Shown here piece after piece: positions 4,152 through 43,439 of a stretch of 64,000 nt of DNA (position 1 is its first letter; the number at the start of each line of letters is the position of its first letter). The translations under genes and the position numbers were made by a program. A model generated the notes under the pieces. It was not told the DNA's origin. It saw only the letters and a program-made list of their open reading frames with translations, and did not search any database. The stretch lies in contig JASMLZ010000072.1 of the NCBI GenBank assembly GCA_030748435.1, positions 29,911-93,910 of the forward strand. The letters are read 5' to 3'. This stretch comes from Gammaproteobacteria bacterium. GTDB taxonomy: Bacteria; Pseudomonadota; Gammaproteobacteria; Pseudomonadales; Balneatricaceae.

Positions 4152-5939
4152 CTAAGTTATAGTATTAGTAATAGGTAAGCGAACTTCAAAGCGGGTGCCC
4201 CGTTCCAGATCACTTAGTACCTGCACTTTGCCCTGGTGGCTTTGCACAATATGTTTCACAATAGCCAACCCCAGACCTGTGCCGCCAACTTCCCGTGAGC
4301 GGGCCTTGTCGACGCGGTAGAAACGCTCAAAGATGCGTTCCTGGTCGGCAGGAGCAATACCGATGCCAGTGTCTTCCACAGCAAATAGAATTTGTTGCTC
4401 ATGCTGTTGCAGATAAACATCAACTTGCCCTCCCGCGGGAGTGTATTTAATGGCATTGTCCACCAAGTTGGTGACTAGTTGATTTAGGGCTTTGTCATCG
4501 CCTAGTACGGGTAAGACCTTATCCTTAACGGCGTGCAATTTAAGGCTGATCTCCTGACTTTGTGCTACAGCTTGTAAGTTAGCGCACACTTTCGCTGTAA
4601 TTCCCATAATATCTACAGTTTTTTCGAAAGCTTCGTCATTGCTTTCGAGGCGAGACAGGGCTAAAAGATCCGATACCAGATCAGACAGGCGCAGTGATTG
4701 GCTGTGAATTTTGCGCATAAAACGGCGTATTAGTTTGGCGTCAACATCACCCCCGTCAAGCAAGGTTTCAGCAAACCCCCGGATTGCCGTTATTGGGGTC
4801 TTTAATTCATGGGAGGCATTGGCGACAAAATCTGCCCGCATACGGTCGATACGTTGTACTTCGGTGACATCTTGCAGTACCAAAATAGCACCATCATTGC
4901 GGGACTCCTTAAGAGGACTAACATGCAGTTGATAGTGGCGCGCAAAAGCATAGCCACGCAGTTGAATCTGTTGTTTGTAACTGGACTGATGGTCGAGGCA
5001 CTTTTTCCATGCCTTATGCAGCACGCTGGTCTCTTCTATCTGTTTTAAGGTCTGTCCCAAACACCGCTCCGCTTTATTGCGTAACATACGTGCGGCAGCG
5101 GCGTTGATATGCTGAATTACCCCTTGATTATCAACCGTAATAACACCCTCATTCATACTTTTAAGAATGGTTTCCAATAAGTCTCTTTCGCTGGCCAGAT
5201 TATTAAAGCGCTGGGCAGATATATCTGCCATTTGATTAAGTGATCGTGCTAGGTCACCAATTTCATCACGGCGATGACTGGGGATGCGTAATTGATAGCG
5301 TCCTTGGGCAAAGTTATTGGCGATTAGGGTCATTTGTCGCAATGGTTGGGCAAAACTCATGGCTAACCAGTAGCCTACAAACAGGGCAATGATTGCGGTC
5401 AGGCTGGTAGCAATAATAATCACTCGACGCAGGTAATTAATTTCCTCATCAATACTTTTGGTAGACAGGGCGGTGCGTATATAACCTAGTTGATTGGTTG
5501 CGTTCAAACTTGGTAAAGCCACATACTGCATGGTGGTATTCAAGGTAGTACTAAAGCGTCTGGATTCACCTATGCCCTCTAGTTTGGCCGCTTGGATTTC
5601 AGGGCGTTGATGATGGTTGTCCATCTTTTGTGGATTAAATTCAGAGTCAGCCAACACTACTCCGTGGCGATCAATCAGTGTAATACGTGCTTCAATGCTG
5701 GCGCTAATCGTAGCTACCTGACGCTGTAGTTGCAGTATGGGAATCTCCGTCTGAAAAGCAAATGTTTGCTGCAGAATATAGGCTTGATGGGTAAGGTTGG
5801 TACGGATATTACGCAGGCTGGCATCTTCTATTTGTCGCTGCACCATTAAGCCAAGGATACTGATACTAAACAATATCACCACTGCAAAGCCGACAAAGAG
5901 TTTAATAAATATGGGTGAATGGCGACGAGTTGCAGACAT
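4152..5939 (-). CDS. phoR: Phosphate-regulon sensor histidine kinase PhoR
   Basis: A 595-residue membrane kinase expected to phosphorylate PhoB. In order: a transmembrane helix near residues 10-35, a periplasmic region of roughly 125 residues, a second helix (RRVIIIATSLTAIIALFVGY), a HAMP linker, a PAS domain (MNEGVITVDNQGVIQHIN), the H-box NASHELKTPITAIRGF with the phospho-accepting His near residue 376, and HATPase motifs (NLVDNAIKYTP, GTGLGLAIVKH). The ORF track starts 26 codons further upstream inside a repeat element; MSATRRH at 5939 is the sensible start. It is longer than E. coli PhoR (431 residues), which lacks a large periplasmic domain. PhoR is assigned because phoB is next to it. 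Confidence 0.9.
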   Translation of the reverse strand: MSATRRHSPIFIKLFVGFAVVILFSISILGLMVQRQIEDASLRNIRTNLTHQAYILQQTFAFQTEIPILQLQRQVATISASIEARITLIDRHGVVLADSEFNPQKMDNHHQRPEIQAAKLEGIGESRRFSTTLNTTMQYVALPSLNATNQLGYIRTALSTKSIDEEINYLRRVIIIATSLTAIIALFVGYWLAMSFAQPLRQMTLIANNFAQGRYQLRIPSHRRDEIGDLARSLNQMADISAQRFNNLASERDLLETILKSMNEGVITVDNQGVIQHINAAAARMLRNKAERCLGQTLKQIEETSVLHKAWKKCLDHQSSYKQQIQLRGYAFARHYQLHVSPLKESRNDGAILVLQDVTEVQRIDRMRADFVANASHELKTPITAIRGFAETLLDGGDVDAKLIRRFMRKIHSQSLRLSDLVSDLLALSRLESNDEAFEKTVDIMGITAKVCANLQAVAQSQEISLKLHAVKDKVLPVLGDDKALNQLVTNLVDNAIKYTPAGGQVDVYLQQHEQQILFAVEDTGIGIAPADQERIFERFYRVDKARSREVGGTGLGLAIVKHIVQSHQGKVQVLSDLERGTRFEVRLPITNTIT

Positions 5940-5945
5940 TGTTAA

Positions 5946-6188
5946 TCCTAAAAACCTCATTTGAACACAGGATTTGCCCTGCGAGACAGGGCCGCAAAAC
6001 AAGGCGCAGGTCACGGTGAATAGTCGTAGCTCTTGGCAAGAACGGCAACGATGGTTTGTGGTTTTGGATCCAGCGCAAAACGGTCTAGTGTTCTTGTATC
6101 CACTTGCAGGGTGAGTAGAACAGACAGCTATTTTAATGGCATGTCAACAGGTTACGCAAGATATAAGCGATCAATAGAGGTTTTTGGT
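5946..6188. repeat. Inverted-end repeat (MITE-like), family 1, copy A
   Basis: About 243 bp of non-coding sequence filling the phoB-phoR gap. It is clearly homologous to 30401-30644 (same orientation) and 18632-18840 (opposite orientation); shared blocks include GGATCCAGCGCAAAAC and GCAAGATATAAGCGATCAA. The ends are inverted: TCCTAAAAACCTCATTTGA on the left and TCAATAGAGGTTTTTGG on the right. TAA flanks it on both sides, and the right-hand TAA is the phoB stop codon, which looks like a 3-bp target duplication. It is too short to encode a transposase. Confidence 0.8.
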
Positions 6189-6908: not shown

Positions 6909-7049
6909 CAAGACCTTTGTTCGATGGCTAATTTACCTGTGACGGCGTTAAAAACCTTACAAGTGGTCATTTATTATACATAAACTCCCTCTTTGCGTGC
7001 GTTTTTGCCTTGTCAAAGAATAATAATACCGGATCGTGCAAAACTCTCT
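6909..7049. repeat. Inverted-end repeat (MITE-like), family 3, copy 1
   Basis: About 140 bp upstream of phoB, matching 43301-43439 upstream of polA. Shared blocks include CCTGTGACGGCGTTAAAAAC (G/T variant), GGTCATTTAT and GTGCGTTTTTGCCTTGTCA. The right end GATCGTGCAAAACTCTCT is the inverse of the left end of the other copy, AGAGAGTTTTGCACGAT; the left end here is degenerate. No reading frame is present. Confidence 0.75.
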
Positions 7050-12149: not shown

Positions 12150-12243
12150 TCAATTAGCTGAGTAACCATGATGTTGAGTCATTTTTTGTGCTGAGTCAGT
12201 CTGGGAAAGGGCTGCAGCCAAGTCATTAAGCTAATTGAAAACA
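12150..12243. repeat. Short inverted-end repeat, family 2, copy 2
   Basis: A 94-bp version of the element at 1491-1625. Left end TCAATTAGCTGAGTAAC and right end GTCATTAAGCTAATTGA are imperfect inverted repeats; the interior TTTTTTGTGCTGA is shared with copy 1. It lies only 32 bp upstream of the dnaA start codon, so it is probably within the dnaA leader or promoter. Confidence 0.6.
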
Positions 12244-12275
12244 CCCTCTGGTCCTCTTGTCGGTAATTTATCAAT

Positions 12276-18631: not shown

Positions 18632-18840
18632 ATCTAAAAACCTCAGCCGGCCCTTATATCTCTCGTAAGGTGTTGAAATGCTATTAAAGTGGCCGGTGAT
18701 TCTATTTGTGCTGAAGGCTTTGCGTTGGACCCATATACACAATCATCGTTGTCATTCCTCGCTCTTGCCAGGGGCTACTTGTCTGCGAGGAGTGTCTTGT
18801 CTTGCGGCCCTGTTTCTTAGACTTAACTGAGGCCTTTCGG
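18632..18840. repeat. Inverted-end repeat (MITE-like), family 1, copy C (inverted)
   Basis: About 209 bp in the gyrB-glyS gap, the reverse complement of copies at 5946 and 30401. Matching blocks include CTTATATCT...GTAAGG, AAAGTGGCC, ATCGTTGTCATTCC-GCTCTTGCCA and CTTGCGGCCCTGT. Ends are TCTAAAAACCTCAGCC and TTAACTGAGGCCTTTCGG; TTTAA flanks both sides. It is the most diverged and shortest copy, and lies directly beside the first parS site. Confidence 0.75.
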
Positions 18841-22258: not shown

Positions 22259-23113
22259 ATGAAATCTTATTTAGCCACTGCTACGATTCGCTTGTTTGGT
22301 TTGCTGCCCATGATGGTAGCCCAGTTTATTGGTTTGTTAGTAGGCCGTTTATTATTCTGGCTGCCCAACGCAACAAAAAATGAAACCCGCTTAAATATTC
22401 AACGTTGTCTGCCGCAACTTCCCAAGCATCGACAACAAAGCCTGTTAAAAGATAGCCTTGCTCATACGGCTATGGCAATGCTGGAAATGGGCCATAATTG
22501 GTGTGGCGCCAATGCTCTGAATCTGGCGAGAATAAAGCATGTCCAGGGAGATGATTTATTAGCGACAACCCGTACTCGCATTATCCTTACTCCTCATTTG
22601 GGCAATTGGGAGTTATTTGCTGCCTGGTTGGCAAGCCATACCCAACTAACTGCCCTGTATAAGCCCGCTAAATTGCCTGCTTTGGACATGCTGATTGCCA
22701 GTGGTCGTAAAGCGTCAGGTATGGCTTTGGCGCCGGCATCTGCGTCTGGTGTTAAGGCTCTTAAAAAAGCTTTAAAAAAACAGCAGTCTATCCTGATATT
22801 GCCTGATCAGGAGCCTCCTGTGGCAGCGTCTATCGAAGCCACCTTCTTTGCCCAGCCTGCTTATACTATGACATTGGTGGCACAATTAGCGAAAGGCGAA
22901 AATGTACAATTGCTGCTTGGTTGGTCCAGGCGCTTGGGTGTGGGTAAGGGGTTTGCTATTCAATTACTGGATATTACTGATGACCTGCAAGAAGCTAAAT
23001 TAGCAGATTCAGTACAAGCTATGAACGATGCCATAGCTGACCTTATTCTTACAGACCCTGCTCAATACCAGTGGGAATACAGGCGTTTCAAGCATACTCT
23101 GGAGCAGGATTGA
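22259..23113 (+). CDS. Lauroyl/myristoyl acyltransferase homologue (LpxL/HtrB family)
   Basis: A 284-residue inner-membrane acyltransferase of the LpxL/LpxM family, which adds secondary acyl chains to lipid A. It has an N-terminal hydrophobic segment (IRLFGLLPMMVAQFIGLLVGRLLF), the catalytic HX4D/E-type motif as HLGNWE, and ILPDQEPP with VEATF-like sequence further on. The ORF track begins at a TTG; ATG 22259 (MKSYLATATIRLFG) is preferred. A single gene reading toward a decayed region, divergent from glyQ. Pseudomonas places a similar gene beside glyQ. The specific acyl donor is unknown. Confidence 0.85.
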   Translation: MKSYLATATIRLFGLLPMMVAQFIGLLVGRLLFWLPNATKNETRLNIQRCLPQLPKHRQQSLLKDSLAHTAMAMLEMGHNWCGANALNLARIKHVQGDDLLATTRTRIILTPHLGNWELFAAWLASHTQLTALYKPAKLPALDMLIASGRKASGMALAPASASGVKALKKALKKQQSILILPDQEPPVAASIEATFFAQPAYTMTLVAQLAKGENVQLLLGWSRRLGVGKGFAIQLLDITDDLQEAKLADSVQAMNDAIADLILTDPAQYQWEYRRFKHTLEQD

Positions 23114-23134
23114 TTTACTGGTGGATTATGCGTC

Positions 23135-23885
23135 GAGCTTATTCGCCAGAGGAGTTTGATAGAACGTATTATTAAATATAGAACTGGCTGGTGTAAGATT
23201 GCTGGCTATCTGTGGATAAATATTTTGTTGCGGGCAGATTCCGATATAAATCAGGTAAAAAATTCTGATAATGACGTTTGCTTGATATCCAAACAAGGGC
23301 CTTTTATCGCTAACCAGTGCAGTAAGGCATAGTGCTTAATAGTTCCAATCCCATTTCAAAAATACCTTATTTGAATAAGATATATTATTGTTTTAAATAA
23401 AAAATAATTTTTAACCAAAGAAATACGCAAGGTTTATGCTAGGGGTATTAGTAGGTAATAAGTGCTTAAAAGTATTCGCATTTGGGTTTGTTTCTGGCAA
23501 ATTATTTCTCTATACCTTGTATAGACCCTGTTTCTTGAAGTTCTGTATTTTTGTGGATAAGTCTGTTGATACTATTTAATTTTATGTAATATAATATATT
23601 TAAGTTAGCTAAAACATGGGCGTAAATATAGCCAGCAAGGTAAAGGTTTCAAATTGCTCCGGCAGTATGGAAAAAAATCCACTTGGCCGTGGGGCTAATA
23701 TCATCTTGGGGCCTAATCCAGCCTTGTGGCCAATAGATAAGTATCAAAGCACAAACTGCAAAGAATTCCCATCCAGCATCGCCTGCTGATCCGGGGCGGC
23801 CCGAGCTTCAAATTTGATACGTATTGCCAGATTAGGGTAAATAAGATTTAGCCTCTTAAGGCAATTAACACACCTTGTTCTATAT
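23135..23885 (-). pseudogene. Decayed tandem copy of the methyltransferase-trkH segment
   Basis: This gene-free stretch aligns almost end to end with about 24030-24890. The first part matches the methyltransferase gene (CTATCTGTGGATAAATATT at 23207 against TTATCTGTGGATAAATATT at 24112; GGCATAGT, GCCTTTTA and GTTTGC blocks follow in the same order). The second part (about 23590-23885) matches the 3' end of trkH: ACATGGGCGTAAATATAGCCAG and TCCACTTGGCCGTGG. Many substitutions, indels and stop codons make both fragments non-functional. The 3' end of the methyltransferase copy is missing. Confidence 0.85.
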
Positions 23886-23889
23886 TTGC

Positions 23890-24450
23890 TTACTTGCGGG
23901 CAATAAGGAGGGCTTGGCCTGCTATGCTGGGATATTTGTCAGGCAGATAAAGTTCTTGTTCATCTAAATAGACCAGAGGCACCAAGCCACTGAATAGTGT
24001 TAATAATTCGCCGGGTTGTAAGAGAAAATTGTTGTTGCTGGGTTTGCCTGTCAGAGGAATCTGATTGAAGGTCTGATAAAATAGAGTACCGTTGGGTTTG
24101 AGGCTGCTAATTATCTGTGGATAAATATTTCGTTGCAGGTAGGCGCTGACATAAATTAGATCAAATTCTGATGCTGGCCATGTTTGCGTAACATCCAGAC
24201 AGCTGCCTTTTACCTCCAACCTATGCCGTAGGGCATAGTCATTGACGGCCTTGATAGCGACCTCAGAAATGTCCCATGCTTGAACATTAAGTCCCTGCTT
24301 TGCAAGAAAAAATGCGTTTTGACCAAGGCCGCATGCAAGGTCCAGAGCAGAACCGTTAGTGGGTAGTAAGTGTTTATAGGTGCTCAACCAGGGGTTAACT
24401 TTTGGCAGATGATTGCTTTTAGAGTAGCGTTGGTTCCATTTATCCGGCAT
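23890..24450 (-). CDS. Class I SAM-dependent methyltransferase (TehB-like)
   Basis: A 186-residue methyltransferase. The SAM-binding motif I is LDLACGLGQNAFFLA near residues 36-50, followed by the acidic D in VQAWDIS and the later FDLIYVSAYL and SLKPNGTLFYQTF strands. The opening MPDKWNQRYS resembles TehB/thiopurine-methyltransferase-type proteins. The substrate is unknown. It is downstream of trkH by 58 bp on the same strand and may be co-transcribed. Two perfect DnaA boxes occur, one inside it (24116) and one just before it (24461). Confidence 0.85.
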   Translation of the reverse strand: MPDKWNQRYSKSNHLPKVNPWLSTYKHLLPTNGSALDLACGLGQNAFFLAKQGLNVQAWDISEVAIKAVNDYALRHRLEVKGSCLDVTQTWPASEFDLIYVSAYLQRNIYPQIISSLKPNGTLFYQTFNQIPLTGKPSNNNFLLQPGELLTLFSGLVPLVYLDEQELYLPDKYPSIAGQALLIARK

Positions 24451-24508
24451 TTTGTTTTCCTGTGGATAAATCTGTTGACAGTATTTTTAATAATATATTA
24501 TATTATAT

Positions 24509-25984
24509 TTAATCTCGCCAAAACATAGGCGTAAATATAACCAGTAAGGTAAACACTTCAAGTCGGCCTAACAACATGGAAAAGCACAAAATCCACTTGG
24601 CCGTGGTATTGATATCACCGTAGTGCTCAGCTACGTCACCTAAGCCTGGGCCTAGGTTATTGAGTGTTGCGCCAACTGCGGACCAGGCAGTAACCTGGTC
24701 CAGACCTGTGGCCAAGAGTACAATCATCATCACTATAAATACCAGAGCATACACTGAAAAGAAACCCCATACAGCGTCAGCTACCCGGTCTGGGATGGCT
24801 GTGCCACCGAGCTTGACGCGAATAACTGCATTGGGGTGAATAAGGCGTTGTACTTCTCTTAGCCCCTGTTTTAATACAATTAACACGCGCACCACCTTCA
24901 TGCCACCCCCGGTTGATCCGGCACAGCCACCGATAAAGGCAGCACTAAACAACAGAAATGGTAACATAGCAGGCCAACTGGCAAAGTCAGCAGTGGCATA
25001 ACCGGTAGTGGTAGCAATAGACACGACTTCAAACAGGCCCTGGCGAAAGCTGCCTATCCAGCCCATATTGGTGGCGATACCGAGTGTGATAATGGTCACC
25101 ACGGAGATACTGGCAATAATACTCAGGAAAAACTGGAATTCTTCATCTCGCCAGTAGTGTTGTAGATTAAAGCTGTGATGTTTATTACGCAGCAGTCGGG
25201 CAGTTTGGAAATGTAGCCCAAAGTTAATGGCAGCGAGCAACATAAAGACAATGGCAATGCCTTCGATAACAGGGCTGTCAAAATAGCCCAGGCTGGCATC
25301 ATGGGTGGAAAAGCCCCCAATGGCAATGGTTGAAAAGCTGTGGCAGATGGCATCAAAGGCGCTCATACCGGCCGCCCAATAGGCCAAGGCACAGCTGACT
25401 GTCAGGGCAAGATAAATATACCAAAGGTGTTTGGCTGTTTCGGTAATGCGTGGGGTTAGCTTGGAGTCTTTAACAGGCCCCGGTGTTTCTGCCCGGTATA
25501 GCTGCATGCCACCAATGCCCAGCATGGGTAAAATGGCCACCGCCAGGACGATAATACCCATACCACCAAACCATTGTAACAGCTGCCGATAGAAGAGGAT
25601 GGATTCTGGTAGGTAGTCAATCTTAATAACCACTGTGGCACCGGTAGTGGTAAGCCCGGAGAGGGATTCAAACAGGGCATCAACAAATTGCCAATTTACT
25701 TGCCATGGCTTTACCAGATATAGAGGCAGGGCGCCGAATATGCCCAGGATCGTCCAAAACATGACGACAATGACAAAGCCGTCACGCGTGCGCAGTACTT
25801 TTTGGTGTTTAGCTGCCGGCAGCCAGGTGACTAGCCCAACTGCCAGGGTAATGACAAAGGCTTCTATAAAAGCCATATGAGCACCATCTTGATAGATAAA
25901 AGACACCAGCAGGGGTGGCAGCATGGCCAGACTGAATACCATCAGGAGGATGCCAATAATTTTCTGAGTAACTCGCAGGTGCAT
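24509..25984 (-). CDS. trkH: Trk potassium uptake channel subunit TrkH
   Basis: A 491-residue potassium-translocating membrane protein of the SKT superfamily (E. coli TrkH 483). Selectivity-filter-like loops are visible: SGLTTTGATV, STIAIGGFSTHDAS, SIATTTGYATADF and ATLNNLGPGLG, one per repeat. It lies 8 bp after trkA, so both come from one transcript. Its 3' end is duplicated as a relic at 23590-23885. Confidence 0.96.
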   Translation of the reverse strand: MHLRVTQKIIGILLMVFSLAMLPPLLVSFIYQDGAHMAFIEAFVITLAVGLVTWLPAAKHQKVLRTRDGFVIVVMFWTILGIFGALPLYLVKPWQVNWQFVDALFESLSGLTTTGATVVIKIDYLPESILFYRQLLQWFGGMGIIVLAVAILPMLGIGGMQLYRAETPGPVKDSKLTPRITETAKHLWYIYLALTVSCALAYWAAGMSAFDAICHSFSTIAIGGFSTHDASLGYFDSPVIEGIAIVFMLLAAINFGLHFQTARLLRNKHHSFNLQHYWRDEEFQFFLSIIASISVVTIITLGIATNMGWIGSFRQGLFEVVSIATTTGYATADFASWPAMLPFLLFSAAFIGGCAGSTGGGMKVVRVLIVLKQGLREVQRLIHPNAVIRVKLGGTAIPDRVADAVWGFFSVYALVFIVMMIVLLATGLDQVTAWSAVGATLNNLGPGLGDVAEHYGDINTTAKWILCFSMLLGRLEVFTLLVIFTPMFWRD

Positions 25985-30351: not shown

Positions 30352-30400
30352 GATTTGTGTTGCTCAAGTAAAACCAAAAAAACGAACTAGAATTGTATCA

Positions 30401-30644
30401 TCCTAGAAACCTCAGTTGAACACAGGATTTGCGCTGGGAGACGGAGCCGCAAAACAAGGCGCCCCTCGCAGGCAATGGCCCTAGTCCTTGGCAAGAGCGG
30501 CAACGATGGCTTGTGGTTGTGGATCCAGCGCAAAACAGTGTAGCGCTTTTGCACTCATCTGTAGGGTAAATAGAATAGCTGGCCATTTTAATTGTATTTT
30601 AACCCCTTATGCAAGATATAAGCGATCAACTGAGGCTTTTAGGA
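30401..30644. repeat. Inverted-end repeat (MITE-like), family 1, copy B
   Basis: A 244-bp element in the def-dprA gap and the best-preserved copy. Its ends are TCCTAGAAACCTCAGTTGA and TCAACTGAGGCTTTTAGGA, nearly perfect inverted repeats of 19 bp. The trinucleotide TCA flanks both ends, consistent with a 3-bp target duplication. The interior matches copy A throughout and copy C in reverse. Non-coding. Confidence 0.85.
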
Positions 30645-43300: not shown

Positions 43301-43439
43301 AGAGAGTTTTGCACGATGGTTACTTTATCCTGTGACGGTGTTAAAAACGTACTCAATCGGTCATTTATCATGCATAACTTCTTCTTTGTGTGCGTTTTTG
43401 CCTTGTCACAGAACAAAATCCCGGCTCGTGCAGAACACT
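43301..43439. repeat. Inverted-end repeat (MITE-like), family 3, copy 2
   Basis: A 139-bp non-coding element between the divergent thrB and polA genes, homologous to 6909-7049. The left end AGAGAGTTTTGCACGATGG and the right end CCGGCTCGTGCAGAACACT are imperfect inverted repeats. The interior shares CCTGTGACGGTGTTAAAAAC and GTGTGCGTTTTTGCCTTGTCA with copy 1. Confidence 0.75.

Follow-up and report, generated by a model that had tools for sequence, protein, structure and literature searches.

A putative relic of a lineage-specific tandem duplication of a methyltransferase-trkH segment in a gene-free gap near a gammaproteobacterial replication origin

Results and Discussion

A 776-bp gap devoid of recognizable genes separates lpxL from a methyltransferase gene (MT) near the replication origin of this bacterium, raising the question of what the gap is and how it arose. 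The window (the whole stretch of DNA analysed, 64 kb) belongs to a draft genome of 2.6 Mb and lies near oriC, with the gene order dnaA-dnaN-recF-gyrB-glyS-glyQ as read from translations. At the locus itself the order is glyQ (-), lpxL (+), the gap, MT (-), trkH (-) and trkA (-). No open reading frame of 60 or more amino acids from a start codon was found in the gap, and each of the six frames contained between 10 and 24 stops. The features discussed below are as follows.

22259..23113, + strand: intact lpxL-like lipid A acyltransferase gene (Pfam PF03279, Lip_A_acyltrans, 8e-39), left neighbour of the relic
23114..23146, no strand: left end of the relic, abutting the lpxL stop; may retain the final codons of the duplicated MT, and precedes an inferred deletion of ~130 bp
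23147..23540, - strand: decayed MT copy, equivalent by alignment of 24052-24449, with stops in all frames
23541..23600, no strand: copy, by alignment, of the MT/trkH intergenic spacer, with an AT-rich tract common only to the genome's own intact copy
23601..23889, - strand: decayed trkH 3' end, equivalent by alignment of 24510 to ~24890, with deletions of 5, 68, 16 and 16 nt
23890..24450, - strand: intact class I methyltransferase gene, TehB/Methyltransf_25-like, 186 aa (PF03848, 4e-11; PF13649, 2e-9), under purifying selection; source copy
24509..25984, - strand: intact trkH, 491 aa (PF02386), source of the 3' fragment

Homology between the gap and the neighbouring genes

The first-pass annotation had proposed that the gap aligns, in order, with the MT-spacer-trkH region, and this was borne out. 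The gap (23114-23889) was collinear with MT, the MT/trkH spacer and the trkH 3' end (24052 to ~24890), with 65% identity over 737 columns. When the gap was compared by blastn with the region downstream of it, E was 9e-38 (67% over 574 columns). The local alignment score reached 418, whereas 200 dinucleotide shuffles averaged 61 and never exceeded 118. The diagonal expected in a self-comparison was present, continuous and gapped. A repeat search recovered direct repeats in the same order, set 905-914 apart in the left part of the gap: 23147-23260/24052-24165 (73%), 23541-23674/24450-24583 (75%), 23674-23712/24588-24626 (79%) and, past deletions, 23712-23736/24694-24718 (80%) and 23856-23871/24871-24886 (88%). 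The spacing is wider on the right because the gap copy carries deletions. Pieces of both proteins were still legible in translations of the gap: “FTLLAIFTPMF*” for trkH “FTLLVIFTPMFWRD”, broken but recognizable, and “FKHLLPTN” and “NIYPQI” for “YKHLLPTN” and “NIYPQI” of the intact MT. Searching the whole genome with the gap returned only the gap itself and the neighbouring source. An assembly artefact was ruled out as the origin of the relic, the two copies being 35% different.

The source segment had been placed at 24030-24890, which is essentially right, although 24052 to ~24890 describes the alignment better and the segment originally duplicated was probably 23890 to ~24890. The aligned part of the methyltransferase had been taken for its 3' half; since MT lies on the minus strand, it is instead the 5' two-thirds, and the 3' end is missing. 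The start of the gap, just past the lpxL stop codon, reads TTTACTGGTGG and resembles the MT end TTACTTGCGGG, and in the congener G003 the MT end directly follows the lpxL stop. The match of this left edge to 23890-23921 (17/32 ungapped) had p ~0.001 at the predicted register but was not significant when the whole 3' region was searched freely; with so weak a match it is no more than likely that the MT 3' end belonged to the original unit, which probably held the whole MT, ~130 bp of its 3' end having since been deleted. A genuine match would put the start of the unit at the lpxL/MT border. The right edge lies near 24890, and the final 15-20 nt of the relic before 23890 match no assignable source. 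The exact breakpoints, like one single tandem event, are inferred.

Relatives at the same locus and ancestry of the relic

All 13 congeners with the locus carried an lpxL orthologue in the same position, and in all of them lpxL adjoined MT, with no relic-like copy in between. G003 and G014, both among the closest congeners, had lpxL and MT ~10 bp apart; in G005 (whose trkH is 92% identical to that of the window) the distance was 215 bp, of unrelated sequence. No other gene occupied the place of the gap. A search of 14 congeners with the relic produced no match beyond the orthologous MT-trkH region (the border region, in G003 and G014). As the copy is missing from the congeners, the duplication is confined to this species among the genomes compared, in which the species is represented by a single genome. 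The G005 lpxL-MT gap also contained a hairpin (TCTGGCACTTTGGGGTC/GACCCCAAAGTGCCAGA, L033:2887-2923), REP-like in appearance.

The relic was aligned with its own intact copy and six congeners. It was 65% identical to its own copy vs. 55-56% to G003, G005 and G014, and for these three nearest congeners the sites at which relic and own copy agreed against the congener (108-125) exceeded those at which relic and congener agreed against the own copy (41-46). In a maximum likelihood tree the relic was sister to its own intact copy (SH-aLRT 99, UFBoot 100; 0.999 with FastTree). The two copies are adjacent and in direct orientation, and their inner junction is absent from the congeners; on the left, the ancestral junction with lpxL can be recognized only weakly. 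Together with the broken frames and the flat, AT-biased decay described below, the absence of the copy from congeners and the sister grouping support a lineage-specific tandem duplication of ~1 kb, comprising MT and the last part of trkH, as the probable origin of the relic.

Alternatively, a related species or strain (the donor may have been a strain of the same species) could have supplied the segment by horizontal transfer, with insertion beside the native genes. The low GC content of the relic (36% vs. 48.6% for the window) could be foreign, and the breakpoints are not recoverable; but the relic is sister to its own copy and to no congener, has features of its own lineage such as the AT tract of the spacer, owes its AT bias to substitutions away from conserved ancestral GC, and stands in the direct, adjacent order that a tandem event leaves. 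Transfer is thus very improbable.

The account that we favour, and consider very probably correct as a whole, is duplication in place after the species split, followed by decay of the lpxL-side copy and retention of the right-hand one. The ancestral order would have been lpxL> <MT <trkH <trkA. After the split from the nearest sequenced congeners, a tandem duplication of ~1 kb, with one end at or close to the lpxL/MT border (~23890) and the other within the 3' part of trkH (~24890), would have placed on the lpxL side a startless trkH fragment and, behind it, a second MT. With the fragment lacking its start and the second MT redundant, this copy would have been free to decay, and it would have gained GC-to-AT substitutions, frameshifts and deletions (~130 bp of the MT 3' end; 68, 16 and 16 bp of trkH). 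The right-hand copy, still joined to the trkA-trkH genes, would have been retained by selection.

Decay and age of the relic

Of the two copies one was intact and the other carried indels and stops, as the first-pass annotation had described. Frame-breaking indels of 1, 4 and 5 nt were present in the relic. Over MT, differences between the relic and its own copy were nearly flat by codon position (0.41/0.33/0.39), vs. 0.25/0.15/0.52 between the own copy and G003, and the changes in the relic were AT-biased (GC-to-AT at 87 of 230 sites vs. AT-to-GC at 45 of 303). For the intact copy, maximum likelihood branches since the duplication were short at positions 1+2 (0.03) and longer at position 3 (0.11-0.21), reflecting purifying selection; they were ~0.4 both at positions 1+2 and at position 3 for the relic, which is therefore free of codon constraint. 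Together with the sister grouping, this upholds the earlier explanation of the gap as one decaying copy of an old duplication, in which no gene remains to be seen.

In trees from the whole alignment the intact tip was 0.02-0.04 and the relic tip 0.48-0.77. An extreme evolutionary speed of the relic was considered and set aside, since splitting by codon position traced the difference mostly to purifying selection on the intact copy; the excess left was ~2-fold, with wide errors, and could be within reach of codon-usage selection and imperfect alignment. The position-3 tip amounted to ~40% (with a wide error) of the part of the distance to G003 that falls to this lineage; the duplication is therefore not recent, yet younger than the split from the nearest congeners.

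Identity varied along the relic more than expected under a uniform process (chi-square p ~0.002). Base composition failed to explain the patchiness, which might stem from two stretches that align poorly or from past gene conversion in patches, and which needs no function.

Another reason for the relic to have persisted would be a retained function, be it in regulation or termination between convergent genes, as an RNA or as an antisense promoter. At 75% identity, the block 23541-23674 is preserved better than average, and promoter-like hexamers are present in both copies: a near-consensus TTGATA-18-TATAAT on the + strand at 23566, with the counterpart TTGACA-18-TATATT at 24475. TATA-like hexamers are, however, easily found in the AT tract of the spacer, and promoter-like sites (8 vs. 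4.9 +/- 2.1 in shuffles) were not clearly above expectation; neither an Rfam match nor a terminator-like site was found within the relic, and the congeners manage without the region. Retention for function therefore has only a slim chance of being right, and it is equally doubtful that the spacer gained a regulatory role (an antisense RNA or promoter, or one insulating the convergent genes) through which the decayed copy was kept. No function is indicated for the relic, and it probably has none.

The relic, collinear with a functional and constrained parent, disrupted in frame, unconstrained itself and specific to the lineage, has the properties of a duplicated pseudogene. Pseudogenes that arose in bacteria by local tandem duplication provide a likeness (compare the degraded Salmonella pseudogenes of Kuo and Ochman, 2010, PMC2916853): a copy probably without function, with neutral substitutions, AT-biased change and deletions, adjoined by an intact paralogue. 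Young pseudogenes are, according to the abstract of that study, usually removed fast, and only a few highly degraded ones persist; the relic differs in having persisted to ~0.4 substitutions per site. It is probably an ordinary pseudogene, a dead by-product of a local duplication, and its age is mildly unusual for a bacterium. It accounts for an otherwise blank gap near the replication origin and, having no wider biological consequence, provides a small, well-anchored case of neutral decay in a bacterium: with the parent copy alongside, it shows directly how AT-biased the mutation spectrum is and how a pseudogene persists.

Other repeats in the window

Two dispersed repeats were also observed. 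An intergenic repeat of ~249 bp occurred at 30392-30640, 5938-6185 and, inverted, ~18634-18816 of the window. The genome had 29 matches to it, counting partial ones, and the long copies were 79-89% identical; it was absent from the 14 congeners, had no Rfam match and might represent a non-autonomous mobile element or a family of RNAs. A second, of ~132 bp (43308-43439 and 6916-7047), matched the genome in at least 40 places, several of them right at contig ends. In addition, 1492-1631 and 12151-12249 shared two short repeats (44 and 47 bp, 83-89%), linking the opening 1.9 kb of the window, where no open reading frame reaches 150 amino acids, with the region just upstream of dnaA.
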